Part shown: piece after piece, positions 8,083 to 57,901 of the stretch | How positions within the stretch are numbered: the first letter of the stretch is position 1 | Layout: every line of letters begins with the position of its first letter | Origin: Bacteroidota bacterium | GTDB taxonomy: Bacteria; Bacteroidota; Bacteroidia; B-17B0; Aurantibacillaceae | Direction of reading: 5' to 3' | Assembly: GCA_025363015.1 (NCBI GenBank) | Contig: JANYEQ010000020.1 | Span: forward strand, 1 to 64,000 | Length of the DNA: 64,000 nucleotides | The notes under the pieces: generated by a model | What the model was told of the DNA's origin: nothing | The model's input: the letters and a program-made list of their open reading frames with translations, nothing else | The model's database searches: none | Made by a program: the position numbers and the translations under genes

Positions 8083-8090
8083 TACTTTTG
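8083..8090 (+). promoter_or_regulatory. Possible -7 box (TACTTTTG) of the sigma factor gene
   Basis: TACTTTTG fits the Bacteroidota TAnnTTTG -7 element. It overlaps the only near-canonical start codon (TTG at 8088) of the sigma factor gene, so the promoter and that start can hardly both be right. I see no clear TTTG -33 box at the expected distance. Confidence 0.35.
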
Positions 8091-8684
8091 AGCACAAGAC
8101 TAACACATACTAGCAATACCCTTAACCCACAATTATGGGTTAAAAATTACTCTGATTATTTATACAACGTTGCGTATTACCGCGTTAACAAGCAAGAAGT
8201 AGCCGAAGATTTGGTGCAAGATACCTTTTTAAGCGCCCTTAATGCCCGCGAAACCTACAAGGGCATTGCCAACGAAAAAACATGGCTAGTAAGCATTTTA
8301 AAAAATAAAATTATTGATTATTATAAAAAAGCAAGTACTCGTAATGAATCTCCATTACAATTAAGCACCGAAGAAGCCCCGAGCTACGATCATTTTTTTG
8401 ACGCAAAAAAATTAGGGCATTGGCAAAGTAGCACAGCGCCAAAAGAGTGGGAAGTAGGCCAGTCGCAAACCGAAACAAAAGAATTTTATACCATATTAGA
8501 AAAGTGCTTAGATAAATTACCTACCAAATGGCGCGGCGTTTTCACAATGAGTTTGTTGGATGACCAAGACGCAAAATTAATTTGTAAGGAAATGAATTTA
8601 ACCTCGTCTAATTTTTGGGTAATTATACACCGAGCCAAACTCCAAATACGCGAATGTTTAGAGAAAAACTGGTTAAAGCAATAA
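8088..8684 (+). CDS. ECF RNA polymerase sigma factor
   Basis: This 198-residue protein has the two ECF sigma regions. Region 2 is YLYNVAYYRV then EVAEDLVQDTFLSAL and TWLVSILKNKIIDYYKK. Region 4 is LPTKWRGVFTMSLLDD then LICKEMNLTSSNFWVIIHRAK. The start is uncertain: TTG at 8088 is the only near-canonical start in frame, yet it lies in a putative -7 box, and there is no ATG or GTG for more than 20 codons downstream. The anti-sigma gene follows after 1 base. The neighbouring Cys-repeat peptide and MNIO genes suggest that it controls this locus, as SigF does for bufferin genes in Caulobacter. Confidence 0.92.
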   Translation: MSTRLTHTSNTLNPQLWVKNYSDYLYNVAYYRVNKQEVAEDLVQDTFLSALNARETYKGIANEKTWLVSILKNKIIDYYKKASTRNESPLQLSTEEAPSYDHFFDAKKLGHWQSSTAPKEWEVGQSQTETKEFYTILEKCLDKLPTKWRGVFTMSLLDDQDAKLICKEMNLTSSNFWVIIHRAKLQIRECLEKNWLKQ

Positions 8685-9039: not shown

Positions 9040-9369
9040 ATGGAAAACAAATCAAAATTAATTAGCTGCTCAATGATTGCAGCTGCTTTAATGAGCGTAT
9101 CTGCAGTTAAAGCTACAAGTTTATTAAACTACAATGCTTTAGGCACTGCAGGCGAAGTTCGTACTTCTTTAGTTAAATCTATTGAAGCTACTTGCGGCGA
9201 GAAAAAAGCTGAAACTAAAGATGCTAAAACTAAAGACGCAAAATGCGGCGAGAAAAAAGCTAAAGACGCAAAATGCGGCGAGAAAAAAGCTAAAGATGGC
9301 AAATGCGGAGAAGGCAAATGCGGCGAGAAAAAAGGTGAGCACAAAAAAGAAGAAGCAAAACCTCACTAA
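9040..9369 (+). CDS. Bufferin-like secreted Cys-repeat precursor peptide
   Basis: The 109-residue product has an N-terminal signal peptide (about residues 1-25, hydrophobic core CSMIAAALMSVSAV). A Lys/Glu/Ala-rich tail follows, carrying five Cys-Gly-Glu units at Cys52, 69, 79, 89 and 94. Repeats of the type KCGEKKAKDA are spaced by 10, and the last pair reads GKCGEGKCGEKK. The EGKCG core is the signature modified by MNIO enzymes in HvfA/BufA (bufferin) precursors, where Cys is turned into a copper-binding heterocycle. The tail ends in His (GEHKKEEAKPH). It is followed by a hairpin terminator and then the MNIO gene. The sequence would not be found by a strict DUF2282 search, so the assignment rests on motif and context. 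Confidence 0.8.
   Translation: MENKSKLISCSMIAAALMSVSAVKATSLLNYNALGTAGEVRTSLVKSIEATCGEKKAETKDAKTKDAKCGEKKAKDAKCGEKKAKDGKCGEGKCGEKKGEHKKEEAKPH
9235..9294 (+). repeat. Perfect tandem 30-bp repeat in the precursor gene
   Basis: Two identical 30-base units (9235-9264 and 9265-9294) encode DAKCGEKKAK twice. Degenerate versions flank them on both sides. The identity at silent positions suggests recent duplication by slippage, a way to change the number of modifiable Cys units. Confidence 0.9.
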
Positions 9370-9510: not shown

Positions 9511-9536
9511 TATTGAAAACAAACAAACAAACAACA

Positions 9537-10370
9537 ATGAATCATTCTATTGGCATAGGTTTCCGTAAAGATTTTGCAGAAGAGTTGTTAAACACCAACG
9601 ACTTAAAACCTGCGTTTATTGAATTAGCCCCCGAAAACTGGATTGGCATGGGCGGCTATTGGAAAAAAGAATTAGATAAAGCCGCCGAAAAATTTCCCAT
9701 AACTTGTCATGGCTTATCATTAAGCATTGGTAGCCCCGATGAGGTAGATGTTAATTTTGTAAAACAAGTAAAGCAATTTTTAAAACACTACAACGTAAAA
9801 ATTTATAGCGAACACTTAAGCTATTCAAAGTGCGACAACGCACATTTGTACGATTTGTTACCCATTCCCTTTAGAGAAGATGCCGTAAAACATATAGTAC
9901 AACGAATTAAACAAGTGCAAGATATTTTAGAAATGCCATTAGTGCTAGAAAACGTAAGCTATTATACGTCTGTTGCTGCACAAATGAAAGAAGAAGAGTT
10001 TATTTCAGCAATTGTAAACGAAAGCGGTTGTAACATGTTGTTAGATGTAAATAACGTATATGTAAACGCTTTTAATCATAATTACAACGCTAAAGAATTT
10101 ATAAAAAAACTACCTTTACATAAAGTTGCTTATGTTCACATTGCTGGTCACGAGCAGGTTAGCGACACATTAATAATTGATACACATGGCCAAGCGGTTA
10201 TTGACCCCGTGTTTGAATTATTTGATTACGCCTCTGATTTAATTAAACCCGTACCCGTTTTATTAGAACGCGATTTTAATATTCCTGAATTAAGCGAATT
10301 ACAAAACGAAATAAATAGATTAGATGCTATTGTTTCAAAAAAATGGCAAACCAATTATGCAATTGCTTAA
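9537..10370 (+). CDS. bufB: MNIO-family enzyme (DUF692), BufB/HvfB-like
   Basis: This 277-residue protein belongs to the multinuclear non-haem iron oxidative (MNIO, DUF692) enzymes, which modify Cys residues of ribosomal peptides. Conserved blocks are visible in order: ELAPENWIGMGGYW, CHGLSLSIGSPDEVD, YSEHLSYSK, LENVSYY, MLLDVNNVYVN, VHIAGHE, DTHGQAVID and LLERDFNIPE. Likely metal ligands are His58, His93, Glu138, Asp170, His201, His217 and Glu244, by position within these blocks. ATG 9537 is preferred over the in-frame TTG at 9513, since family members begin close to the IGIGFR motif. Its stop overlaps the start of the DUF2063 gene. The substrate is presumably the Cys-repeat peptide just upstream. 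Confidence 0.93.
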   Translation: MNHSIGIGFRKDFAEELLNTNDLKPAFIELAPENWIGMGGYWKKELDKAAEKFPITCHGLSLSIGSPDEVDVNFVKQVKQFLKHYNVKIYSEHLSYSKCDNAHLYDLLPIPFREDAVKHIVQRIKQVQDILEMPLVLENVSYYTSVAAQMKEEEFISAIVNESGCNMLLDVNNVYVNAFNHNYNAKEFIKKLPLHKVAYVHIAGHEQVSDTLIIDTHGQAVIDPVFELFDYASDLIKPVPVLLERDFNIPELSELQNEINRLDAIVSKKWQTNYAIA

Positions 10371-11112
10371 AGAAGATACTCACACGCAGCAAGCGCGTTT
10401 GGCAGACTATTGTCGCACGGGCAACACCCCAAATTTAATAGATATAAAACAAGATAATTTATATCAGTATCGCCGCCTTGTTTTTAATATTGCCAGCGAT
10501 ACGTTAGAAACCGCTTACCCAATAACCTATAGTTTTTTACCACAAAATGTTTGGGAAAAATTAGTGTACGATTATTTTGCCGAACACAAATGCCAAACAA
10601 CACAGGTGTGGCGAATGCCTTTGGAATTTTATGACTATTGTAAAGAAAAAAACCTTCAAGAAACATTAGGCGTTCCTTTTTTAAACGATTTATTATATTT
10701 TGAATGGTTGGAGTTAGATGTTCACACCATGGAAGATATAGCCTATCCAAAAACAAAAGAAATTGGAAGTTGGCTAACAGATGTTATTGTATTAAACCCA
10801 GAGCATAAACTCATACAACTAAGTTACCCCGTTCATACCACAGCGCCAACCGAAAATTTAGACGAAAAAAAGGGCAATTATTTTTTGTTAATTTATCGCG
10901 AAAAACAAACAGGCAACGTGCAGTTTATTGATTTATCAATGTTGTATGTGTTTATTATCGAAAATATTATTAATGGCATTACTCTAAATATAATTTTAGA
11001 AGAAGCAAATACCTTATTACAAATAAATGATATTGATTTATTAACCCAACACGCATTAACTTTTTTAGAAGATTTAAAACAACGCGAGTTTGTTTTAGGT
11101 TTTTTGTCTTAG
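10357..11112 (+). CDS. bufC: DUF2063 protein, BufC/HvfC-like MNIO partner
   Basis: The 251-residue protein has the DUF2063 pattern in its N-terminal half (LADYCRTG, YRRLVFNIASDTLETAYPI, VWEKLVYDYFAEH, LGVPFLNDLLYFEWLELD). The C-terminal half is mixed alpha/beta and is typical of HvfC/BufC partners. In characterised systems this protein binds the MNIO enzyme and helps to recognise the precursor. ATG 10357 gives a 14-base overlap with the MNIO gene; the in-frame ATG at 10324 would give a longer overlap and a less typical N-terminus. Overlap and gene order support translational coupling with the enzyme. Confidence 0.88.
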   Translation: MQLLKEDTHTQQARLADYCRTGNTPNLIDIKQDNLYQYRRLVFNIASDTLETAYPITYSFLPQNVWEKLVYDYFAEHKCQTTQVWRMPLEFYDYCKEKNLQETLGVPFLNDLLYFEWLELDVHTMEDIAYPKTKEIGSWLTDVIVLNPEHKLIQLSYPVHTTAPTENLDEKKGNYFLLIYREKQTGNVQFIDLSMLYVFIIENIINGITLNIILEEANTLLQINDIDLLTQHALTFLEDLKQREFVLGFLS

Positions 11113-11160: not shown

Positions 11161-11604
11161 ATGATGATAAAAAAATTAATAGAAAAGTTTAATAACAGTG
11201 CTAATAAAGGACAATCTATTGCCTTATTAGGTTTACGTTTAGTGTTGGCTTATGGCTTTTATGAAACCGCAAAAATAAAATGGCAAGATATAGGCTCGGT
11301 AGCCGATTGGTTTGAAAGCATAGGCATTATTGCTCCAAAATTTAATGCGTACTTAGCTGCTACTACCGAAATGGCAGGGGTGTTTTTATTAGCCCTAGGG
11401 TTAGGCGTACGTTTTATTTCAATTCCACTAATTATTACCATGGTGGTGGCAATTAAAACCGCACATTGGGCCAATGGTTTTGCCGCAGGCGATAATGGTT
11501 ACGAAATACCCTTATATTATTTATTAATGTTATTGGTTTTAACAAGTTTTGGTGCTGGAAAATTAAGTGCCGATTATTTAATACAACGTTTTATAAAAAA
11601 ATAA
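11161..11604 (+). CDS. bufD: DoxX-family membrane protein, BufD/HvfD-like
   Basis: The 147-residue protein has four predicted membrane segments (about 20-40, 65-82, 85-101 and 116-133). It has the DoxX pattern LRLVLAYGFYETAKIKW, FNAYLAATTEMAGVFLLALGLGVR and the acidic/polar WANGFAAGDNGYEIPLYY loop. DoxX proteins occur at the end of many bufferin/HvfABCD operons and are thought to help with membrane redox or handling of the product; the exact role is unknown. It starts 48 bases after the DUF2063 gene and closes the cluster. Confidence 0.88.
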   Translation: MMIKKLIEKFNNSANKGQSIALLGLRLVLAYGFYETAKIKWQDIGSVADWFESIGIIAPKFNAYLAATTEMAGVFLLALGLGVRFISIPLIITMVVAIKTAHWANGFAAGDNGYEIPLYYLLMLLVLTSFGAGKLSADYLIQRFIKK

Positions 11605-42277: not shown

Positions 42278-44212
42278 TTACATTTCCTGTATTTCTAACC
42301 AGCGTTGGGTTTTTTCATCTAAATTAGTAGTAAGAGCTATTAATTCGGTATTTAATTTTTGTATTTGCGCATAATCTGTTATACCGCTTGCCAACTCTAT
42401 TTCTAGTTTTTTCTTTTTTTCTTCTAAAGCAGGCAATTCGTTTTCTAATTCTTTTAATTCGTGTTGTAATTTAAACGATAATTTTTTTGGAGAATCAACA
42501 CTAACGGTTTGCGGCTTTTGCTCTGTATCTTCTTTTTCGCTTCGACTACGCTCAGCAATACCATTGCCCTCTACTACACTTAAGTTAGCGCTGTTTTTTT
42601 TACCAATTAATTTTTGTTCTTGTTGCCACTCACGGTAATCACTATATGTGCCTGGATAATCTTTTATTTCGCCATCACCCTCAAAGGCAAAAACGTGGTC
42701 AACTAATCTATCCATAAAATACCTATCGTGGCTTACAATTAACACACAACCCTTAAACTCATCTAAAAATTCTTCTAAGGTTTGTAGGGTTACAATATCT
42801 AAATCGTTAGTAGGCTCATCTAAAATTAAAAAATTAGGATTTTTTACAAGCACGGTTAATAAATATAAACGGCGTTTTTCGCCCCCACTTAATTTACTTA
42901 CAAAACTATGTTGTACCTCGGGTGGAAAATTAAAACGGGTTAATAAAGCGGATGCCGAAAGGCTTGTTCCGTTTGCTAATGGAATAAACTCGGCAATATC
43001 TTTTACAACTTCTAATATTCTTTTATCGTTATTTAATTGTATTCCGCCTTGCGAATAATAGCCAAACACTACGGTATCGCCCGTTTGTACTTTACCACTA
43101 TCTACTTCTAATTCGTTTAAAATAATTTTTAGTAAGGTTGATTTCCCCGCACCATTTTTACCAACCACACCAATTTTTTCGCCATTAATAAAGGTATAAG
43201 TAAAAGGATTAATTAATTTTTTATCGCCAAAGTGCTTACTTATTTTATGTAATTCAACAATTTTAGAACCCAAACGTTCCATTTTTACGCTTAATTCAAT
43301 TTTCTTTTCGGTACGTTTTTGTTTTGCTTTTTCTTCTACGTCGTAAAAAGCATCAACCCTGCTTTTTGATTTAGTGGTGCGGGCTTTAGGCATTTTACGC
43401 ACCCATTCTAACTCACGGCGATACAAATTTTTTGCCTTATCAATTTCGGCATTTTTCATCATTTCGCGTTCGGCTTTTTTAGTTAAATAATACTCAAAAT
43501 CACCCCTGTATTCAACTAACTCACCACGCTCTAATTCAATAATGCTATTACACACTTCATCTAAAAAATAACGGTCGTGGGTAACTAACAATAAACTTAA
43601 CGAGGAGCTTTGTAGGTAGTGCTCTAACCATTCAATCATATCAATATCTAAATGATTGGTAGGCTCATCCATTATTACTAAATCTGGTTTATTAATTAAA
43701 ACCAAAGCCAAAGCAACACGTTTTTTTTGCCCACCACTAAGAGTATTTATTACTTGCGTTAAGTCATTTAACTCTAAGCGCGACAAAACCTCTTTAATTT
43801 CGGTTTCGTATTCCCACGCATTTAATTCATTCATTTGCGTTAGGGCATCGTCCATTAATTGTGCCGAAGCATCGTTAGGATTTGTTTCTGAAAGACGAAT
43901 AGCTTCATCGTATTTTTTAATACATTTTACAAAAGGGTTATCAGCATTATCAATTAATTGTTGAATGGTTTGGTCTTCACTTAGTGTAAAATTTTGATCT
44001 AAAAATGCTACCGAAATATTTTTACGAAATACAACCTCACCCTCATCAGCAATCTCAAGCCCTTTTAAAATTTTAAATAAGGTTGTTTTTCCACTGCCAT
44101 TTTTGGCAACAAGGGCCACTTTATCGCCATAATTAATACCAAAGTTTATTTTATTAAAAAGTGTTTTTGTGCCGTATTGTTTTGATAAGCCACTAACCGA
44201 GAGTAAGTTCAT
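42278..44212 (-). CDS. ABC-F family ATPase (Uup/YdiF-like)
   Basis: The 644-residue soluble protein has two ABC domains and no membrane part. Domain 1 shows GSGKTTLFKIL, LSGGQKKRVALAL and DEPTNHLD; domain 2 shows GAGKSTLLKI, LSGGEKRRLYLL and DEPTNDLD. The inter-domain linker (KMPKARTTKSKSRVDAF) is typical of ABC-F proteins, which act on the ribosome. A C-terminal coiled coil (about 570-644) recalls the DNA-binding tail of Uup. Between domain 2 and the tail, residues around 553-557 (ERSRS) are encoded by a copy of a dispersed genomic repeat. Confidence 0.92.
   Translation of the reverse strand: MNLLSVSGLSKQYGTKTLFNKINFGINYGDKVALVAKNGSGKTTLFKILKGLEIADEGEVVFRKNISVAFLDQNFTLSEDQTIQQLIDNADNPFVKCIKKYDEAIRLSETNPNDASAQLMDDALTQMNELNAWEYETEIKEVLSRLELNDLTQVINTLSGGQKKRVALALVLINKPDLVIMDEPTNHLDIDMIEWLEHYLQSSSLSLLLVTHDRYFLDEVCNSIIELERGELVEYRGDFEYYLTKKAEREMMKNAEIDKAKNLYRRELEWVRKMPKARTTKSKSRVDAFYDVEEKAKQKRTEKKIELSVKMERLGSKIVELHKISKHFGDKKLINPFTYTFINGEKIGVVGKNGAGKSTLLKIILNELEVDSGKVQTGDTVVFGYYSQGGIQLNNDKRILEVVKDIAEFIPLANGTSLSASALLTRFNFPPEVQHSFVSKLSGGEKRRLYLLTVLVKNPNFLILDEPTNDLDIVTLQTLEEFLDEFKGCVLIVSHDRYFMDRLVDHVFAFEGDGEIKDYPGTYSDYREWQQEQKLIGKKNSANLSVVEGNGIAERSRSEKEDTEQKPQTVSVDSPKKLSFKLQHELKELENELPALEEKKKKLEIELASGITDYAQIQKLNTELIALTTNLDEKTQRWLEIQEM
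42540..42555. repeat. Dispersed CTTCGACTACGCTCAG repeat inside the ABC-F gene
   Basis: This 16-base string is a known form of the short element scattered in many Bacteroidota genomes. Here it is read in frame as ERSRS in the ABC-F linker. Confidence 0.7.
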
Positions 44213-44283: not shown

Positions 44284-44670
44284 TTGTTGAAAATTTTGAT
44301 TCATATAGCTTTATTTGCCATAGTGTTTAGCTTATATGCTAAATTACATGTGTGTATTAATTACATAATTAATCAAAAATACTATGCCGAGGTGTTGTGC
44401 GAAAAAAAAGCAGAACCTGAATCGTGTTGCCATGGTAAGTGTGCTATGGAAAAGGAATTGATGAATGTAACTGAAAAAGAAGATGCTTCGACAAGCTCAG
44501 CAGCCAAAAACAATACACCTATATTAAAAATTGGAAAAACGGAAGAGGCCCTGTGCCATTCGCTTAAATTGGTTAATTTTAAAAAACAAATTTGTAGTAT
44601 TAATTCCATTTACCTGCAAAAAGAAAGTGCGGGTACTTTTTTTAAAATTAACAAACCGCCCTGTATTTAA
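44284..44670 (+). CDS. Small membrane-anchored Cys-rich protein
   Basis: The 128-residue protein starts with a membrane segment (LKILIHIALFAIVFSLYA) and carries eight Cys residues (24, 39, 48, 49, 53, 91, 104, 127). The cluster ESCCHGKCAMEKEL (47-60) is typical of a small Bacteroidota family found beside copper-type MbnP/MbnH genes. Metal binding is plausible but unproven. A hydrophilic spacer (EDASTSSAAKNN) is encoded by a dispersed repeat. The start is one of two adjacent TTG codons (44284 or 44287). It opens a five-gene unit. Confidence 0.7.
   Translation: MLKILIHIALFAIVFSLYAKLHVCINYIINQKYYAEVLCEKKAEPESCCHGKCAMEKELMNVTEKEDASTSSAAKNNTPILKIGKTEEALCHSLKLVNFKKQICSINSIYLQKESAGTFFKINKPPCI
44486..44500. 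repeat. Dispersed CTTCGACAAGCTCAG repeat inside a coding sequence
   Basis: This is the second common form of the scattered short element. It is read in frame as part of DASTSSA in the Cys-rich protein, in a region that looks like an unstructured spacer. Confidence 0.65.
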
Positions 44671-44793
44671 TTTTTTTATAGGAATAAAATTAACCTAAAA
44701 CATTTTTTAATGCTTTTGGTTATTATTTTGTTAAATAATGCTGTAATGCCTGCTATTATGGCAAAAAATCACTATATTTATTAAAATTTTATT

Positions 44794-45576
44794 ATGAAAA
44801 ATATATCAAAAATTTTATCAATAACCTTATTGGTAGGCTTTATATCTTGTAAAAAAGATAAAAAAACAGTGCTTCCCGAGCTAACACCGTCGACAGTAAC
44901 GTATGGTAAGTTAAACATTGAGTTTGAAAACGTAATAGATACAATGGGTTTACAATTTGGCACAAATTATATAAACCAAAATGCAGATACTTTTAAGGTG
45001 TCGTTGTTACAATATTATATTTCAAACATTGTAGTTACTAATACCGACAACACACAATTTGTTGAGCCAAATAGCTATCATTTAATTGACCACTCCGTTC
45101 CTTTAAGCTCGGTGGTAGGTCTAATAAATGTACCCCAAGCTTCGTACAAATCTATTAGTTTTGTTTTGGGGGTGGATAGTGCACGAAACGTTTCTGGTGC
45201 CCAAACTGGCGATTTAAATCAAGCAAATGGAATGTATTGGCCCTGGACGGGTTACATTATGTTTAAACTAGAGGGTACATCATTAAAAGTACCCGCTAAT
45301 AGCAACCATGCATTTGCATATCATATTGGTGGATACGGCGGAACGCTTAAAGCACAGCGTAGTTTTACTTTTAACTTTACAACTACAACTGCAAATGTTA
45401 GCACAAGCGTTACGCCCGAAATACATTTACAGACAAATGTGTTAGAGGTATTTAAAACACCTACAGTAATTGATTTAGGAACAACATATGATGTTACGAG
45501 TGTAAATAATAGGTCAAAAACAATTGCCGATAATTATTCAGATATGATACGGTTTAAACATGTACATAACGATTAA
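44794..45576 (+). CDS. mbnP: MbnP-family lipoprotein
   Basis: The 260-residue protein has a lipoprotein signal (lipid Cys19 in GFISCKK) and the MbnP pattern: KLNIEFENVID, QYYISNIVV, SISFVLGVDSARNVSGAQ, GMYWPWTGYIMFKLEG and AFAYHIGGYGG. In characterised pairs the diheme enzyme MbnH oxidises a Trp of MbnP to kynurenine, creating a copper site; Trp149 and Trp151 are candidates here. The next gene, encoding an MbnH-type diheme protein, overlaps its stop by one base, which strongly supports the assignment. Confidence 0.87.
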   Translation: MKNISKILSITLLVGFISCKKDKKTVLPELTPSTVTYGKLNIEFENVIDTMGLQFGTNYINQNADTFKVSLLQYYISNIVVTNTDNTQFVEPNSYHLIDHSVPLSSVVGLINVPQASYKSISFVLGVDSARNVSGAQTGDLNQANGMYWPWTGYIMFKLEGTSLKVPANSNHAFAYHIGGYGGTLKAQRSFTFNFTTTTANVSTSVTPEIHLQTNVLEVFKTPTVIDLGTTYDVTSVNNRSKTIADNYSDMIRFKHVHND

Positions 45577-46622
45577 TGTATAAAAAACTTGTTGTATATT
45601 TTTGTGTTATTTTTTTAATGATTGGCTGTAAAGTTGATCCAAAAATAAACGCGCCATTACCAAGCAATAATTTAGTTGAGGTTATTCCGCAAGGTTGGCC
45701 CCAACCTAATTATACATTTAGTGTAAACACTATTAGTCAAGATAAATTTATTTTAGGAAGAGCCTTATTTTACGAAACTATGCTAAGTGCTGATAATACA
45801 ATTTCTTGTGGGTCCTGCCATCAACAAGTTGTTGCTTTTGCCCATGCAAATCATGCAATTAGCCATGGCATAAATAATTTGGTAGGCACTCGCAATGCTC
45901 CCGCATTATTTAACTTAACGTGGAGTAAAAATTTTATGCACGATGGCGGTATTAATAATATTGAAGTTCAGCCATTGGCGCCTATACAAAATACAGTTGA
46001 AATGGCCGAGAACATTAATAATGTTTTAGCTAAATTACAGGCAAGCACTAAGTATAAAGATTTGTTTAATAAGGCTTATGGCAGTGAAACGGTAGATTCG
46101 CAAAAAATGTTGAGAGCCATGACACAATTTATGGGCCTAATGTATTCGTACAACAGCAAATACGATTTATACAAGCGTGGCGAAAACAATGTGCAATTAA
46201 GCGATGCCGAACTAAGAGGCTATAATTTATTTTTAGCAAAATGTAATAGTTGCCATAAAGAACCTTTATTTACAGATTATGCGTATAGAAGTAATGGCAC
46301 AGCCATTAACCCTTTTGTAAATGATAGTGGTAGAGCAAAAGTTACTGGATTAACACAAGATAAATACAAATTTAAAACACCAACCTTAAGAAACATTGCA
46401 CTTACTAAACCATATATGCACGATGGAAGTTTGCAAACATTAAACGATTGTTTAAATCATTACACAAACCCAATTACTAATACCACAAACCTTGATCCCC
46501 TACTAATACCAATCGGCATACCCATGACGAGTAATGAAAAGCAAGACATTATTGCTTTTTTAAACACCCTAACAGATTATAAATTATTAGCAGACAAACG
46601 TTTTGCCGACCCAAATTTTTAA
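45576..46622 (+). CDS. mbnH: MbnH/MauG-type diheme cytochrome c peroxidase
   Basis: The 348-residue lipoprotein (lipid Cys18 in LMIGCKV) has two haem c sites, Cys78-x2-Cys81-His82 (CGSCH) and Cys223-x2-Cys226-His227 (CNSCH). It shows the di-haem peroxidase signatures GRALFYETMLSADNTISCGS (about 61-80), RNAPALFN, MHDGG and TLRNIALTKPYMHDGS. MauG-like members use a high-valent diheme state to oxidise a partner protein instead of removing peroxide. The one-base overlap with the MbnP-like gene makes that protein the likely substrate. The protein acts on the outer face of a membrane. Confidence 0.88.
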   Translation: MYKKLVVYFCVIFLMIGCKVDPKINAPLPSNNLVEVIPQGWPQPNYTFSVNTISQDKFILGRALFYETMLSADNTISCGSCHQQVVAFAHANHAISHGINNLVGTRNAPALFNLTWSKNFMHDGGINNIEVQPLAPIQNTVEMAENINNVLAKLQASTKYKDLFNKAYGSETVDSQKMLRAMTQFMGLMYSYNSKYDLYKRGENNVQLSDAELRGYNLFLAKCNSCHKEPLFTDYAYRSNGTAINPFVNDSGRAKVTGLTQDKYKFKTPTLRNIALTKPYMHDGSLQTLNDCLNHYTNPITNTTNLDPLLIPIGIPMTSNEKQDIIAFLNTLTDYKLLADKRFADPNF

Positions 46623-46627
46623 ATAAA

Positions 46628-46999
46628 ATGAAAAAAATAATTTATATAAAAATATTATTTATAATACTTTTTTTAGGATGCAAAAAAAACCAGTTAGGTG
46701 GTAAATCAACAATATCAGGAGTTATAAAACACCACACAAAAACAATTGCTAGTGCTACTGTTTTTATAAAATTTAACGCAAAAGATTTACCAGGTACTGA
46801 TACTACTTTGTTTGATACAAAAGTGAGGGCAGATGCTGATGGTAACTATATTATAAAATGCTATAAAGGAAATTATTTTTTATACGCATATGGTTATGAT
46901 TCGCAGGTAGTTACCAATAACGGTAGGGTAACCGGAGGTAGTGCGGTTAGTGTTCGTAATAACGAAAAGGTAATTATTGATTTGGGAGTTACGGAATAG
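46628..46999 (+). CDS. Small lipoprotein with prealbumin-like fold
   Basis: The 123-residue protein has a lipobox FLGC at about 15-18. The rest resembles a carboxypeptidase regulatory-like/transthyretin domain: STISGVIKHHTKTIASATVFI, RADADGNYIIKCYKGNYFLYAYG and EKVIIDLGVTE. It contains two His residues (HH, about 36-37) and one Cys in the mature chain. Its place directly after the diheme gene (5-base gap) ties it to the MbnP/MbnH module, where its role is unknown. Confidence 0.7.
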   Translation: MKKIIYIKILFIILFLGCKKNQLGGKSTISGVIKHHTKTIASATVFIKFNAKDLPGTDTTLFDTKVRADADGNYIIKCYKGNYFLYAYGYDSQVVTNNGRVTGGSAVSVRNNEKVIIDLGVTE

Positions 47000-47046
47000 A
47001 CTGTAAATATTAGTGTAGTGATTAAACATAAAAACTTTAATTAACT

Positions 47047-48018
47047 ATGAAAAAAACAATATTAATACCATTTTTATTTTTTTATTTTACAAATTATGCT
47101 TGCGATATTTGTGGAAGCTTTATGGGTATAACCCCATACGACAATCAAAATCAAATATGTTTATTGCATCGCTACCGGGTGTTTAATGGATATCGTAATT
47201 ATCAGCAAACATCTAAATTTGTTGTGCCGGGTGCATATAAAATAATGCATAACGATTCGCTATTACAAAACGATACGATTTATAACAGTAAAAACCACAG
47301 CAGTAAAGATTTTGAAAGTTATAAAGTATTTGAATTAAGGGCAAAATATTTTTTAAAACCGCGTTGGGAAATAAATTGTATCATTCCATTTCAACAAATT
47401 AAAACACAATATGATAATATAAAAACAGAAAACACAGGTATTTCAGATCCTTCGCTATATTTAGGCTACCACCTTATTAAACGTTTAAAAGGTTATGCAA
47501 TTAAACAACGTTTAATAATTGGCGCAGGACTAAAATTCCCGTTAGGTAAAAATGATAAACACAATAATAATTACCGCCTATCGCTCCTAAACCAAAATGG
47601 TACAGGCAGTTGGGATAATTTTTATTATATAAATTACATTATTAGTAAAAATAAATTTGGTATAAATAGTAATATACTTTTTAAATTAAATGGCACAAAT
47701 AAATACAACGAAGGTGTTGGTAATTCAATTAATCAAATATTAAATGTGTTTGTTAGATTGGATGTTAAAAACATAAAACTATTTACATCAGTACTTGCCA
47801 ATTATGAATATACGCAAGGCGTTTATGTTAATAAAAAATTAATTGTTGGCACAAATATGAATACACTTTTATTGGGTCCTAGTATAGATATTGTATACAA
47901 AAACTTTGTATTTAACTCTTCGTTTCAGTTTAGGGCCCATGAAAGGATTTCAAGTCAAAATCTTTCAACTGCTGGAAGGTTTATATTAGCCCTAACATTT
48001 AATTTTAGTAAGAAGTAG
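47047..48018 (+). CDS. Outer-membrane beta-barrel protein with N-terminal CxxC
   Basis: A signal peptide (MKKTILIPFLFFYFTNYA) leads to CDICGSFMGITPYDNQ, a CxxC motif at the mature N-terminus. About 290 residues with alternating beta-strand character follow (for example FELRAKYFLKPRWEINCIIPFQQ, RFILALTFNFSKK), ending in a barrel-like strand. I know this family only as a companion of MbnP/MbnH-type genes in Bacteroidota. It could be an outer-membrane channel or receptor for copper or a copper carrier; this is inference. It is the last gene of the unit, 47 bases after the small lipoprotein gene. Confidence 0.65.
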   Translation: MKKTILIPFLFFYFTNYACDICGSFMGITPYDNQNQICLLHRYRVFNGYRNYQQTSKFVVPGAYKIMHNDSLLQNDTIYNSKNHSSKDFESYKVFELRAKYFLKPRWEINCIIPFQQIKTQYDNIKTENTGISDPSLYLGYHLIKRLKGYAIKQRLIIGAGLKFPLGKNDKHNNNYRLSLLNQNGTGSWDNFYYINYIISKNKFGINSNILFKLNGTNKYNEGVGNSINQILNVFVRLDVKNIKLFTSVLANYEYTQGVYVNKKLIVGTNMNTLLLGPSIDIVYKNFVFNSSFQFRAHERISSQNLSTAGRFILALTFNFSKK

Positions 48019-48039: not shown

Positions 48040-48987
48040 TTATCTAAATAACGAGATGTGTCCTTTACGCACTAATTTTTTGTCGGTTCCCTTTTCTGAA
48101 CTTTCTATAATATAAACATAGTTATCTTCGGGGCAAAGGTTGCCCTTAAAACGCCCGTCCCACTTACCACTTGTGCTATTTGTATTAAAAACAGTATTGC
48201 CCCACTTATCGCTTATGGTGAGTAAAAAATAAGAGTATTCGCATTGCAACACTGGAAAAAAATAATCGTTTTTGTTATCTTCATTAGGTGTAAAACTATT
48301 TGGTATTAACATTTCGCAATCGCAAGCTTTTAATTTTACTTTAACACTATCGGTTTGTAAACCACAACTTTTGTTTTCGGTAGTTACCCAATAGTTACCT
48401 TCTTTTACAATGGTTATAGATGAAGATGTTGCTCCAGTATTCCATAAAATTTTTGTACCTATAGTAGGTTTAATACTTAATATTTTTGTGGGCTCGCTTA
48501 AACAAAATTGTTGTTCGGCACTAAAGTTTGTACTTGTTCCCTGTATAAATTTTATGCTAACAGTAACAGAAATTGCACAACCAAAGTTGTTTACTTTAAC
48601 CCAGTAGTTACCTGAGTTTTCTACTTTTATTTTTTGAGTTGTTTCGCCTGTATTCCATAAATATTTATAGCCTATGTTTCTAGCATCTAAAAAAAATTGT
48701 TTTCCTTTACACAAAACAGTGTCGTGTATATTCAATTTTGGTTTTGTATATACTTTTACAAAAGTGCTATCATAAAAAGTATTTTTATTTGATATTACTT
48801 TTACATAATACTTACCCCCAGTTTTAAATGCTGTAATTTTTTTTGTGTTGTATATAATGTTGTAAGGCGTTGTCCATTGTATGGTTGCATTTTTATCAAA
48901 GTTATCTTTTAACTCTATTTTAGCACTATCTCCAGCACAAAAACCAGTGGTGTCAGGCAATATACTTTTTTGCGAAAATAAACTCAC
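48040..48987 (-). CDS. Secreted protein with CHU_C tail; start codon uncertain
   Basis: The protein has three Ig/PKD-like repeats (WNTGETTQKIKVENSGNYWV, WNTGATSSSITIVKEGNYWV) and ends with a CHU_C-type domain (LIPNSFTPNEDNKNDYFFP, ISDKWGNTVFNT, LCPEDNYVYIIE), so it is exported by the type IX system. The GTG at 48987 gives only MSLFSQ before the mature chain. Reading upstream in frame gives a full signal peptide (IKQFITYLFLILSVSLFSQ) that begins at an ATA codon overlapping the stop of the kinase gene (49024-49026). Translation therefore probably starts there, at a non-AUG codon, or an ATG was lost by mutation or sequencing error. Confidence 0.8.
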   Translation of the reverse strand: MSLFSQKSILPDTTGFCAGDSAKIELKDNFDKNATIQWTTPYNIIYNTKKITAFKTGGKYYVKVISNKNTFYDSTFVKVYTKPKLNIHDTVLCKGKQFFLDARNIGYKYLWNTGETTQKIKVENSGNYWVKVNNFGCAISVTVSIKFIQGTSTNFSAEQQFCLSEPTKILSIKPTIGTKILWNTGATSSSITIVKEGNYWVTTENKSCGLQTDSVKVKLKACDCEMLIPNSFTPNEDNKNDYFFPVLQCEYSYFLLTISDKWGNTVFNTNSTSGKWDGRFKGNLCPEDNYVYIIESSEKGTDKKLVRKGHISLFR

Positions 48988-49022: not shown

Positions 49023-51929
49023 TTATTGTTCCAGTTCTATTGTTATAATTGTGCCATTAAGGTTGCTGTTTAGAGTAGATTTATCTACCATAGTAACCAC
49101 TTGTTTTTTTCCAGTAAGTTTGGAGTTAATTTCTAAAATATTTTTAATAGTACTTGTGCCTAATGATTTATGACCCGTTTTAGCATGTTCTTTTGCTTTA
49201 ATTAAACCCACACCATCATCTTCAATAATTATAATAAGTTTATTTTTAGCGCTTTTTTTAAATAAAATAGATAGGGTACCGTGCTCTAGTTTTGGCAAAA
49301 TGCCATGTATAATACAGTTTTCAACATGTGGTTGAATAATCATATTAGGAATCATTATTTCGTTTTTATTTACACTTTCATCTACAGTAATTATATAATC
49401 AAATTTATTTTTAAAACGTTCTTTTTCTAACTCTAAATAATAGGTAAGTCTCGCTAACTCATCCGTTAGCGTTATTTCGCTTTGTGAAGCTTTTTCAATA
49501 ATCATTCGTATTAGTCTCGAAAATTTTGCTAAATATTCGCTGGCACGCAAACTATTATTAGTGTTAATGTAATTTTGAATAGATGTAAGAGAGTTAAAAA
49601 TAAAATGCGGACTTAGTAAAGCGTTCATGGCTTGGTGTTTTAATAAATGAACTTGCTGCTCGTCTTGTAAGCGTTTTGTAGCTTTATGTTTTATACGCCT
49701 AATGATTACAAAACTAATTACGGTTATTATTAATAAGCCCAAAAATATAAAAAGCCAATAAATCCATTTTGATTCTGTTACGCCAATTTCTTTTTCAATA
49801 GAAATGAGTGTGGCTTCGCTCCAAGTGATATTATCAACCGAGGCTACAATTTCTACATTTGTATTTCCGCTGGCTAATGAAAACAAATTGCACGAGGTAT
49901 TATCAATTTTTTTCCATTCGCCTTTATTTTGTCGGTAGCGATAATATTGCTTATTGGGTTTATTAAAAAACGGACTTGTAAAATAAATACTAACATCGTT
50001 TTGACTTGAGGTAAGAAAAAGAGAATTGTTTTTAGCCTCAAAGGGCTTTCCATCAACAGTAAAGTTTGTAATAAAAACCGACTTTAAAGTCGAGTAATAA
50101 TTTAAAACATTTTTAATATCAGAAATGGCAACCCCTCTCGCAGTGCAAAAACATACCGTTTCGGCATTAAATACAATATCGTTTATCGAATTAGAAAGTA
50201 AGCCGGTAGATTTATTTAATACTTTTAATGGTTCTAATTTTTCGTTACAAATAAAAACGCCATCCAAAGTAGCTAACCAAATTTGGCGGTTGTAATGTTT
50301 AATTTTTTTAACGCTGTTTAAACGTAAGTTGCCAATCTCAGTAATTAATGTATTTGAATATACTTCTGTAATGCCCGATTCATGAGCAACATATAATTTG
50401 TTGTTAATTAATGTAATATCGTTTATTTTAAAATTTAATTCGGCTTTTATAATATTTTTATAGGTTTTATTTTTAAAATTATATATATATAAACCATTAC
50501 TTGTTCCTATGTATAGTGAATCGCGTAGTTTTAAAAATGCATTTACTGAGAGCCTATAGTCTGGAAAAGAAATAAGTGTATCTAATGTTTTGGTAGCATT
50601 ACTATTACACAATAAAATATTCGCGCTCCAATCGGCAACAATGCTTTGATTATTGTTTATAGGTAAAAACTGTTTTGCAATAATGGGTTTAATTTTATAT
50701 ATAAATTTAGAGTCTGAAAAAACAGAGGGCGCCATGTCAAATTGACTACGCTTGCTATAATACAACACATCGTTTAATTCGGTAATATTATTAATAGGTT
50801 CCATTAAAAAGGCGTCGGGGCTTGATAGTGTTTTTGTTTGATTGGTTTTAATATTTAAACCATATAAGCCATTGTTTGTTGCGGTTACAAGTAAATTATT
50901 TTTTAGGTAAGCTTGGTTTACATTTAATATTTTGCCATTAAATAAAAAATTTAACGAATTAAAAAACGGATTTTGGATGTAATACACGCCATCATTAAAC
51001 GTACCCACCCAAATATTTTCATTTTTATCTTTATAAATACAATTAATTAAACTTGGTGGAATATCTAATGCCTCAAACACATCATAAACAGTGTTGTTTT
51101 GGTATATGTACAAGTTCTCGTCGGGGTATGATGTAAACCAAATTTTACCATAATTATCGCTAATTATTTTATCAATACTTTTTTCGCCTCCCAACATAAA
51201 GGTTGATGTTTTTGTTTTATAGGTTGGGCTTATTTCTTTTTGAACCTTGTAATTATTTAGTATAACAATTTTGTTTGAGGTACCAATAATTAATGTTGAG
51301 TCCGCGCCTTGGGTAATTGAGTGAATAGTTATGTTTTTTAAAACGTTTAATTTTTTTTGTGTACCATCACTTACATCATAAAGCCCATCGGTTCTACCAA
51401 CTAAAATTTTACCATCGTTTGTTTTATAAATACAAAAAGCTCTGTTTGGCTTTTCTACTTTTTTAAAGTCATCGGTTTGTATGCTGCCATTGTTTAAATT
51501 TACAATTGTAAGTTTAATGCCTGAGGTTAAAAGAAAAGCAAAGTTCTTAGTAATAATAAAATTATCGGCATTGTTTTTTATTTTTAATTGTGGTAAAAAC
51601 GAATATTTTTTTGTTTTTAAATTATAGTTGGCAAGCCCTTCATCTCTTATAGATAAAAGCAAATCGTTATCGTTTTTTAAAGAAACATTTAGCAACGCAT
51701 TACTTTTTAAACTATCTATGGTTAGTTTGTTAAAATTATAACCGTCATAAAAATATATGCCATTTTGCGTTGTAAAATAAATTAACCCGTTTTGGTGTTG
51801 TTCTATATTAAAAATATTAGTATTGTTTAATCCATCCTCACTACCTAATTTTTGAAAATTAAATGAAGGTGTTTGAGCGAAAGCACAAGTACAAAAAATG
51901 TATGAAAAATATTTTAAAAAACCCCTCAA
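49023..51929 (-). CDS. LytS-type sensor kinase with Reg_prop/Y_Y_Y periplasmic part
   Basis: A signal peptide (TTG start, MRGFLKYFSYIFCTCAFAQ) is followed by a large periplasmic beta-propeller region (about 25-640) with Reg_prop-like repeats (GKILVGRTDGLYDVSDG, ENIWVGTFNDGVYYI), then a Y_Y_Y domain near 660-720. A membrane segment (WIYWLFIFLGLLIITVISFV) lies at about 727-747. The cytoplasmic part is a His_kinase/LytS module: LLSPHFIFNSLTSIQNYI with the phospho-His, then an ATPase with PHVENCIIHGI and IIEDDGVGL. No LytTR regulator is adjacent. The ligand is unknown. It is co-transcribed with the CHU_C gene. Confidence 0.88.
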   Translation of the reverse strand: MRGFLKYFSYIFCTCAFAQTPSFNFQKLGSEDGLNNTNIFNIEQHQNGLIYFTTQNGIYFYDGYNFNKLTIDSLKSNALLNVSLKNDNDLLLSIRDEGLANYNLKTKKYSFLPQLKIKNNADNFIITKNFAFLLTSGIKLTIVNLNNGSIQTDDFKKVEKPNRAFCIYKTNDGKILVGRTDGLYDVSDGTQKKLNVLKNITIHSITQGADSTLIIGTSNKIVILNNYKVQKEISPTYKTKTSTFMLGGEKSIDKIISDNYGKIWFTSYPDENLYIYQNNTVYDVFEALDIPPSLINCIYKDKNENIWVGTFNDGVYYIQNPFFNSLNFLFNGKILNVNQAYLKNNLLVTATNNGLYGLNIKTNQTKTLSSPDAFLMEPINNITELNDVLYYSKRSQFDMAPSVFSDSKFIYKIKPIIAKQFLPINNNQSIVADWSANILLCNSNATKTLDTLISFPDYRLSVNAFLKLRDSLYIGTSNGLYIYNFKNKTYKNIIKAELNFKINDITLINNKLYVAHESGITEVYSNTLITEIGNLRLNSVKKIKHYNRQIWLATLDGVFICNEKLEPLKVLNKSTGLLSNSINDIVFNAETVCFCTARGVAISDIKNVLNYYSTLKSVFITNFTVDGKPFEAKNNSLFLTSSQNDVSIYFTSPFFNKPNKQYYRYRQNKGEWKKIDNTSCNLFSLASGNTNVEIVASVDNITWSEATLISIEKEIGVTESKWIYWLFIFLGLLIITVISFVIIRRIKHKATKRLQDEQQVHLLKHQAMNALLSPHFIFNSLTSIQNYINTNNSLRASEYLAKFSRLIRMIIEKASQSEITLTDELARLTYYLELEKERFKNKFDYIITVDESVNKNEIMIPNMIIQPHVENCIIHGILPKLEHGTLSILFKKSAKNKLIIIIEDDGVGLIKAKEHAKTGHKSLGTSTIKNILEINSKLTGKKQVVTMVDKSTLNSNLNGTIITIELEQ

Positions 51930-55703: not shown

Positions 55704-56432
55704 GTGTTTAAAAATAGTATATATCTTTTCGCTAATGCATTACTTACGCTTAATGGTTTTGCTCAAAGTGGTTCACCTATTATAGTAAAAGATAACCAAT
55801 TGTGGTTAGGATATTATAACAGTATTATTTTAAATTCTAAATGGAGTGTTAATTCGGATTTACAATTTAGAACCAAAAATGAAATTAAACATTATTCTCA
55901 AGCGCTAATTCGTTCAGATATATCTTATAAACCAAAGGATAGAATTACCATTGCTGTAGGATTAGCTCATTTTAGATTTTTTATTACAGATGAAAAAACC
56001 AGAAAAGAATGGCGCCCCTGGCAGGAATTAAAATTAACAGATAAATTTAATATGTTAAAACTAACACATCGTTTTAGAATAGAACAACGTTTAAATGAAA
56101 TAGTAAAAAATGATGAGTTAACGAATGACTATCAATTCAACTTTAGATTCAGGTACAGATTGGATGTGCGTTATCCTATTTTAATAGAAAAAGAGGCGGG
56201 TAATAATATGTATGCCTTAATAGGAAATGAAATTATGATTAATGCAGGTAAGAATATTACATACAACTATTTTGATCAGAATAGATTATATATAGGGTTA
56301 AATTATGAGCTAAATAAAAAATTAAGTTTACAATTACAATACATGCACATTTGGCAACAGGGCACCAACGGAATAACATTATATAGTAACGAAGTCATTC
56401 GTTTTAATATTTATCACACCATTAACTTATGA
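55704..56432 (+). CDS. DUF2490 outer-membrane-like protein
   Basis: The 242-residue protein has a short signal peptide (GTG start, MFKNSIYLFANALLTLNGFAQ) and the DUF2490 pattern: QLWLGYYNSIILNSKWSVNS, FRTKNEIKHYSQALIRSDISY, KLTHRFRIEQRL, FNFRFRYRLDVRYP. It is predicted to form a beta-barrel. DUF2490 has no established function; its place inside the sulfur operon suggests a link to sulfur-compound uptake or export across the outer membrane, which is inference. Its stop overlaps the next gene by four bases. Confidence 0.8.
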   Translation: MFKNSIYLFANALLTLNGFAQSGSPIIVKDNQLWLGYYNSIILNSKWSVNSDLQFRTKNEIKHYSQALIRSDISYKPKDRITIAVGLAHFRFFITDEKTRKEWRPWQELKLTDKFNMLKLTHRFRIEQRLNEIVKNDELTNDYQFNFRFRYRLDVRYPILIEKEAGNNMYALIGNEIMINAGKNITYNYFDQNRLYIGLNYELNKKLSLQLQYMHIWQQGTNGITLYSNEVIRFNIYHTINL

Positions 56433-57901
56433 GTATAGAAACACAAAATAAATTATTTCCGGTTTTTTTAAAACTCGAAAACTTTCGTGTGCTGATTATT
56501 GGCGGCGGAAAAGTAGGGTTGGAAAAAGTAACAGCTATTATCAATAATAGTCCCGCAACAAAAATTACTTTGGTGGCTACTCATGTATCTGAAGATATAA
56601 AAACTATTCAAGGTAATTATAGTAACATAACAATTCATCAACGTTCTTTTAAAGAAACAGATTTGAACGATGTTGATTTGGTAATTGTTGCTATTAATAA
56701 TAAAGAAACAAGTTTAGAAATAAAACAACTGGCTCAGCAAAAACATATTTTAGTTAATGTGGCTGATACACCTGAGCAATGTGATTTTTATTTAGGTTCT
56801 ATTGTACAAAAAGGAAATGTAAAAATTGCTGTATCTACCAATGGAAAGTCGCCAACACTTGCTAAACGAATCAGAGAAACTTTTGAAGAATCATTTCCGA
56901 ATGAGATTAATGAATCCTTAGATAACTTAACCAAAGTGCGCGGATATTTAGCAGGCGATTTTACCGAAAAAGTAAAGCAGTTAAATGCCATTACATCGGT
57001 TCTTTCCTCTAATCCTAAAAAATTAAAAGAAACTACTATTAGTAAAAAACGTATTTGGACTTACAGTTTGTCTATACCATTGTTGTTAATTTTAGGCTAT
57101 GTATCTAGCCATTTTTTACCACCAAATATTTTAGGGGGTTATGCTTATCAATTAACACAAAGTATTGATTCTTCTATTTTCCTATTTATTTTAGCGGGCT
57201 TCACAGCACAAATGATTGATGGTGCATTAGGAATGGCTTATGGTGTAACAGCAACAACTTTTTTACTATCTTTTGGTGTAACGCCGGCTGCATCTAGTGC
57301 TAGCGTGCATGCTTCCGAAGTTTTTACAAGTGGTGTATCTGGTTTAATGCATTTAAAATTTGGAAACGTGAACAATAAATTATTTAAGAGTTTATTAATT
57401 CCTGGTGTAATTGGCGCCATATTAGGAGCTTATATTTTATCGTCTTTTGAACAATATAATTACATCATTAAACCCTTAGTTTCTGCTTATACATTAATTT
57501 TAGGCATCATTATTATTTTTAAAGCATTAAAAAAAGACAACATCCGCCAAAAAATTAAACGTATTTTTCCTTTAGCAGCTGTTGGTGGGTTTTTAGATTC
57601 TGTTGGTGGCGGTGGTTGGGGACCAATTGTATCTTCTACATTAATTGCAAGAGGCAGAAATCCACGCTATACAATTGGTTCGGTAAACTTAGCTGAGTTT
57701 TTTATTACACTGGCTAGTTCTTTAACGTTCATTACCATTATAGGTTTAACACATTGGACAATTATTTTAGGGTTAATTATTGGTGGAGTAATTGCAGCCC
57801 CAATTGCGGCATACATTGCTAATAAAATTCCTACCAAAAGTATTATGATACTTGTAGGGATTGTAGTAATCATAACCAGTTTAAAACGATTGTTTTTTTA
57901 A
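56429..57901 (+). CDS. Fusion of CysG N-terminal domain with TSUP (TauE/SafE) transporter
   Basis: Residues about 1-195 are a precorrin-2 dehydrogenase/sirohydrochlorin ferrochelatase domain: RVLIIGGGKVGLEKV for NAD, HILVNVADTPEQCDFYLGSI and STNGKSPTLAKRIRE. Residues about 210-490 are a membrane domain of the TSUP/TauE type with eight or nine helices (FILAGFTAQMIDGALGMAYG, GFLDSVGGGGWGPIVSSTL). One chain therefore joins the last steps of siroheme synthesis to a predicted sulfite or sulfate carrier. Both halves fit the operon. There is no stop or frameshift at the junction, so it is a true fusion. Confidence 0.92.
   Translation: MSIETQNKLFPVFLKLENFRVLIIGGGKVGLEKVTAIINNSPATKITLVATHVSEDIKTIQGNYSNITIHQRSFKETDLNDVDLVIVAINNKETSLEIKQLAQQKHILVNVADTPEQCDFYLGSIVQKGNVKIAVSTNGKSPTLAKRIRETFEESFPNEINESLDNLTKVRGYLAGDFTEKVKQLNAITSVLSSNPKKLKETTISKKRIWTYSLSIPLLLILGYVSSHFLPPNILGGYAYQLTQSIDSSIFLFILAGFTAQMIDGALGMAYGVTATTFLLSFGVTPAASSASVHASEVFTSGVSGLMHLKFGNVNNKLFKSLLIPGVIGAILGAYILSSFEQYNYIIKPLVSAYTLILGIIIIFKALKKDNIRQKIKRIFPLAAVGGFLDSVGGGGWGPIVSSTLIARGRNPRYTIGSVNLAEFFITLASSLTFITIIGLTHWTIILGLIIGGVIAAPIAAYIANKIPTKSIMILVGIVVIITSLKRLFF

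Follow-up and report, generated by a model that had tools for sequence, protein, structure and literature searches.

A cluster of five genes lies within a 64,000-nucleotide stretch of DNA (the window: positions 1 to 64,000 of contig JANYEQ010000020.1, assembly GCA_025363015.1) from a Bacteroidota bacterium of the family Aurantibacillaceae. The genes, designated here C, P, H, T and B in map order, encode a Cys-rich membrane protein, an MbnP-family lipoprotein, an MbnH-type di-heme enzyme, a transthyretin (TTR)-like lipoprotein and a predicted outer-membrane channel (Table 1). Many genomes carry this set with its order unchanged, so the arrangement is not due to chance. The five genes form a widely conserved operon, and a function in copper handling is well supported.

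The preliminary description of this locus, made by reading the sequence, is confirmed in what it observed and partly supported in its interpretation. All five open reading frames are present on the plus strand, and P and H share one base at position 45576. The CCHGKC motif noticed earlier corresponds to residues 48 - 53 of C. The lipobox-type signals of P, H and T end in Cys and read FISC, MIGC and FLGC, respectively; the TTR-like character of T is reflected in a weak match to PF13620. The CxxC at the mature N terminus of B was also found, the sequence being NYA/CDICG with the slash at the likely end of the signal peptide, and a barrel is indeed the predicted fold. The genes are closely spaced (5 bp between H and T, 47 bp between T and B), and the 123 bp gap between C and P could accommodate a second promoter. 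A sigma-70 promoter scan gave fewer matches than shuffled sequences, Bacteroidota promoters being outside the coverage of the models.

Table 1. Features of the five-gene operon and of other loci in the window
Feature	Position	Strand	Remarks
C, 128-aa Cys-rich protein	44284..44670	+	TTG start; N-terminal transmembrane segment; conserved C39 and C49-x-G-x-C53
C, codon of C39	44398-44400	+	
C, codons of C49-x-G-x-C53	44428-44442	+	
P, MbnP-family lipoprotein, 260 aa	44794..45576	+	lipid Cys19; PF20243; predicted fold match 7l6g
P, codons of W149/W151 (WPW)	45238-45246	+	
P, codon of His177	45322-45324	+	
P, codon of His211	45424-45426	+	
P, codons of C-terminal HxH (256/258)	45559-45567	+	
H, MbnH-type di-heme lipoprotein	45576..46622	+	lipid Cys18; TIGR04039, PF03150, PDB 6e1c; also Trp116, Met281
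H, codons of heme motif C78-H82	45807-45821	+	
H, codon of His122	45939-45941	+	
H, codons of heme motif C223-H227	46242-46256	+	
T, TTR/CarboxypepD_reg-like lipoprotein	46628..46999	+	lipid Cys18; weak PF13620; invariant His35-His36
B, predicted 12-strand outer-membrane channel	47047..48018	+	signal peptide, then C19-D-I-C22-G
B, codons from C19 to C22	47101-47112	+	
ABC-F ATPase gene	42278-44212	-	flanks C
CHU_C protein gene	48040-48987	-	flanks B
Extracytoplasmic function (ECF) sigma factor	8088-8684		bufferin-type locus
Repetitive CGEKKAK precursor	9040-9369		bufferin-type locus
PF05114 enzyme	9513-10370		bufferin-type locus; 1.9e-101
DUF2063 partner	10324-11112		bufferin-type locus
DoxX	11161-11604		bufferin-type locus

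P belongs to the Pfam MbnP family (E 5.6e-48), scoring 163.8 bits against a gathering cut-off of 27. The match to the NCBIfam equivalog TIGR04052 (MbnP_like_WxW) reaches 30.4 bits, below the curated cut-off of 140, and P is therefore filed under the Pfam family and not under the equivalog. The predicted model of P (predicted local distance difference test, pLDDT, 90.8) can be superimposed onto the MbnP of Methylosinus trichosporium (7l6g) with a Z score of 18.4 and a root-mean-square deviation of 2.7 over 211 residues (Foldseek E 3.6e-9). This is the sole good match of the model among solved structures, the next best having a Z score of 5.5, and it was recovered by fold comparison only, as the sequence-profile search of P against the PDB gave nothing useful. 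Together, the Pfam score and the fold support the earlier assignment.

The MbnP of M. trichosporium binds Cu(I) only once MbnH has converted the first Trp of its WxW motif. By analogy, W149 of P would be converted to kynurenine and P would bind Cu(I). Among 188 distinct MbnP homologs, 187 retain W149 and 177 retain H177. The second Trp, W151, is present in all 69 MbnPs that have C or B and an adjacent MbnH, in 58 of 65 with MbnH only, in 31 of 34 lacking C, B and an adjacent MbnH, and in 10 of 20 where C or B is present and MbnH is not adjacent. This pattern fits a role for W151 in the MbnH reaction, albeit with too few independent events: there are about five changes of this Trp on the tree and four independent pairs, and the association between loss of W151 and a non-adjacent MbnH is not significant, with on average 2.8 pairs in the same direction and 0.1 in the opposite one. 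Furthermore, MbnH-like genes occur elsewhere in all 17 genomes checked, 15 of which have no adjacent H. His211 and the two His residues of the C-terminal HxH, which may constitute a second metal site, are found in 61/69, 61/69 and 59/69 of the C/B loci, and in 7/65, 4/65 and 4/65 of the MbnH-only loci. The C-terminal HxH is linked to the C/B loci by clade, and the association is not significant on independent pairs.

The best NCBI family for H is TIGR04039, the MbnH family of di-heme enzymes, which is matched over the full length (E 1.4e-63) with 215 bits, below the curated cut-off of 362.85. H is also a member of the bCCP/MauG superfamily (PF03150, E 6.4e-51), and its best PDB match is 6e1c (E 9.6e-42), the MbnH of M. 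trichosporium. These three matches support the identification of H as MbnH-like. Both heme motifs are present in all 159 aligned MbnH homologs. In this superfamily the Trp of the FWDG motif sits between the two hemes; in H its place is taken by His122. Trp is found there in 116 of 151 distinct homologs and His in 23, including H, nearly all of them within the P-H-T clade of the source genus. The nearby Trp116 is conserved.

The source genome (143 contigs, 3.3 Mb) contains six MbnP genes; C and a full B are single-copy. A second MbnP-MbnH context is present in this genome and its genus (L039 (G000:C39), L076, L086, L101, L107 and others), in which the pair follows a sigma-factor-like gene, a small anti-sigma-like gene and a gene for a short periplasmic protein that by eye resembles Spy/CpxP; this order suggests envelope-stress or metal control. 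In a third context within the genus (L081-L099 and similar loci), MbnP stands right after yidD, has no adjacent MbnH and retains its WxW. In L037 (G000:C6, 677-2683) there are two tandem MbnP genes, and behind each lies a gene for a small protein (cluster c21) that contains a heme-c-like CxxxGCH motif; the second of the two MbnPs has lost its WxW.

C is a Cys-rich protein with a single membrane span and has no Pfam or NCBIfam family. C39, C49, G51, C53 and the terminal Pro-Pro (P125, P126) are invariant in its alignment, as is the His pair in that of T. No homolog with a solved structure was found for either protein. Several genomes have T behind an MbnH gene that lacks a P partner, and in L273-L275 a T-family gene lies downstream of genes that by sequence appearance encode resistance-nodulation-division (RND) efflux and membrane-fusion/adaptor-like proteins.

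B is predicted to be an outer-membrane channel of the FapF/COG4313 type. The protein from the window has no Pfam match; among its relatives, L155 scores over the cut-off of PF13557 (Phenol_MetA_deg) and L042 and L236 are just under it. The family profile matches FapF (E 1.8e-7), and the model (pLDDT 80.7) shows a barrel with some 12 strands, the COG4313 channel 4rl8 giving a Z score of 24.4 and FapF 22.1. PcoB is also among the structural matches, though low (Z 11.7). The conserved N-terminal motif of the family is CDxCG(C/S)F(M/L)G, which is modeled with low confidence. Cys19 is often preceded by Tyr or Phe at position -2 of the likely signal-peptide end, and judging from the sequence, lipidation of this Cys seems less probable than type I cleavage. 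FapF is the closest solved structure of B by sequence profile and among the best by fold, so that B might be a peptide or protein secretion channel which exports or displays C or P, copper being merely a cofactor of the cargo. This seems quite improbable, however, because 4rl8 is a slightly better match, C is membrane-anchored and lacks repeats, B has no obvious plug or coiled-coil domain, and the neighbors of B are MbnP and MbnH, with no Fap-like genes noticed.

Conservation of the neighborhood was studied in two surveys. The first covered 60 related genomes, 54 of them with MbnP, from which most MbnP loci were taken, and used iterative profiles for the five families. The order C-P-H-T-B was found in several genomes of the same genus, and C-P-H-B, C-B-P-H and C-B-P in others. 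In the second, 84,980 species genomes were searched with the barrel alone, so that MbnP played no part in the selection. The sample analyzed consists of the best 80 among 162 confirmed relatives, and 9 of these 80 loci repeat loci of the first survey; a neighboring gene was counted if it lay on the same strand and no more than 3.5 kb away, and neighbors were not selected for. CDxCG was one of the two patterns used in the scan, and the conservation of this motif in the result is partly due to selection. Among hosts with a name, Hymenobacter (30) and Pedobacter (21) predominate, and the list also includes uncultured Bacteroidota. Of the 80 barrel loci, 75 carry MbnP, 73 carry C, 59 carry MbnH and 16 carry T. 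A lack of conserved neighbors, given earlier as a refuting condition, is thus not what the survey shows.

The preliminary description treated the five genes as one module. The extra genes do belong with the P/H pair, but the set is not one indivisible machine. C-P-B without an MbnH gene between P and B occurs in 20 of the 80 barrel loci, and some loci that lack MbnP contain C-B-T or C only. P-H-T is intact in genomes of the same genus where C and B have decayed: in G034 there is a stop codon in C and B is broken in two, and in G018 C contains three stops and no B was found. Loss of C thus tends to go hand in hand with loss of B.

The company of these genes points to copper, as had been proposed. 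In 20 Pedobacter-type operons, genes for SCO1 and cytochrome c come next after B (SCO1-SenC, 1e-20 in the tested example). In two loci from metagenome-assembled genomes a COX1 gene directly precedes C (PF00115, 1.4e-139 in L177). C is found widely, and time and again its neighbors are of the copper type even where MbnP is missing: it stands after an HMA-domain protein (L236 and L240) or after SCO1 (L245 and L255), in each case before B and T, or else before a TonB receptor (L242) or a weaker Plug match (L251). An alternative is a redox or peroxide module, in which H would be peroxidase-like, P, T, C and B would take part in thiol chemistry or electron transfer, and none would have a role specific to copper. 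The superfamily of H, the cytochrome c genes downstream in some operons and the His122 variant, which may favor another chemistry, agree with it. The MbnP fold of P with its conserved W149 and H177, the SCO1 and HMA neighbors and the C-P-B operons without adjacent H all argue against it, and we consider it improbable.

The second copper-type system reported for the window is indeed present, as a bufferin-type set of five genes. Its presence in the same window lends some weight to copper defence, in which the operon, jointly with the bufferin locus, would bind excess periplasmic copper and expel or store it, with B as the exit, a role proposed for PcoB, and C and P as sponges. The PcoB match of B and the position of T behind RND-efflux-like genes are in line with this. 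Nevertheless, the recurrent SCO1, COX1 and TonB-receptor neighbors indicate supply, no CopA-, CusA- or CopC-like gene was noticed inside C-P-H-T-B operons, and the characterized analog CorA is copper-repressed (PMC3912023). Defence is a rather unlikely explanation, albeit the most serious rival.

The locus is most likely an envelope copper-handling operon for copper acquisition and delivery to copper enzymes such as cytochrome c oxidase, a function we hold to be about evenly balanced against all others. B and the lipoproteins suggest an outer-membrane location, and they may be exposed on the surface. B would be a small outer-membrane channel, the N-terminal CDxCG thiols of which bind or guide Cu(I). 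H would oxidize W149 of P to kynurenine, and P, a lipoprotein carrier, would hold Cu(I) at a site that includes the oxidized residue. T might be an accessory lipoprotein assisting through its His-His pair. C would be held in the inner membrane by its anchor, expose its Cys-x-Gly-Lys-Cys head to the periplasm, accept Cu(I) there and hand it on to SCO1-type or HMA-type chaperones. The analysis establishes the gene identities at family level, the predicted folds, the conserved operon, its recurrent SCO1, COX1 and HMA neighbors and the conservation of W149 and H177, whereas copper as the ligand, the formation of kynurenine, import and not efflux, the membrane sides and the order of this relay are inferred from them.

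Several observations weigh against acquisition and delivery. With His122 in place of the inter-heme Trp, the oxidation chemistry of H may be different. A FapF/COG4313 fold alone does not imply metal transport, and SCO1 proteins also have thiol-redox roles. In G020 an internal deletion leaves only the two ends of B, and C nevertheless looks intact. Finally, some C-P-B operons have no adjacent H and half of their MbnPs have lost W151; kynurenine is therefore perhaps not essential in every version of the system.

The passage of copper across the outer membrane to cytochrome oxidase is poorly understood and, to our knowledge, has been little studied in Bacteroidota. The operon structure links MbnP/MbnH to an undescribed channel, a Cys-rich membrane protein and SCO1 and COX1 genes, and widens the range of the pair far beyond methanotrophs. 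Many of the operons are in cultured genera (Pedobacter, Hymenobacter), so that the proposal can be tested directly on identified genes in organisms that can be grown. The His122 subtype of MbnH would allow the need for an inter-heme Trp in protein tryptophan oxidation to be examined. A bolder and unlikely possibility is a Bacteroidota-wide, TonB-independent copper entry for the assembly of respiratory oxidases, combining a channel with a CDxCG port, a kynurenine-bearing MbnP carrier, C as the inner-membrane acceptor and an MbnH subtype that works without the inter-heme Trp.

Two other loci of the window deserve mention. A propeller-sensor histidine kinase (Reg_prop and His_kinase; 49023-51929) is encoded on the strand opposite to the operon, with the CHU_C gene between them. 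A single open reading frame at 56429-57901, in a sulfate-assimilation cluster, encodes a fusion in which siroheme-synthesis domains are joined with a sulfite-exporter domain of the TauE/SafE type.

The spread of MbnP/MbnH beyond methanobactin producers has been noted before (PMC3621798). The pair itself is known, and the operon with C, T and B is a widespread variant not described in searchable papers: the literature search found no description of C-P-H-T-B, subscription papers being outside its reach and the neighborhood analyses of the main MbnP/MbnH papers possibly containing parts of it. Like the MbnP/MbnH of M. trichosporium OB3b (7l6g, 6e1c), the system has the MbnP fold, the WxW motif and a paired di-heme enzyme gene. 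It differs in that P is a 260-residue lipoprotein with the extra His211 and C-terminal HxH, in the His122 of H, and in the partner genes C, T and B, no report of which was found for the M. trichosporium system. No MbnA, MbnB or MbnC of a methanobactin operon is among the genes around 42 - 52 kb, and the genes that accompany PF05114 at 9.5 kb are of the bufferin type. The bufferin (MNIO/PF05114) systems for copper ribosomally synthesized and post-translationally modified peptides are also copper-associated and involve a modified protein, but their enzymes, precursor and gene set differ from those of the operon, and the bufferin locus is about 33 kb away. B has a 12-strand fold and distant profile similarity in common with the FapF, COG4313 and PF13557 barrels, but carries the CDxCG motif at its N terminus and sits in copper-type operons. 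CorA/CorB and MopE/SACCP of methanotrophs likewise consist of a secreted or outer-membrane kynurenine Cu(I) protein with a di-heme peroxidase, repressed by copper (PMC3912023). No channel or Cys-rich membrane protein has been described there, unlike B and C here. CorA, a functional analog at the cell surface, binds Cu(I) by means of two His residues and a Trp-derived kynurenine (PMC3912023), and CorA/CorB is the closest physiological parallel to P and H.

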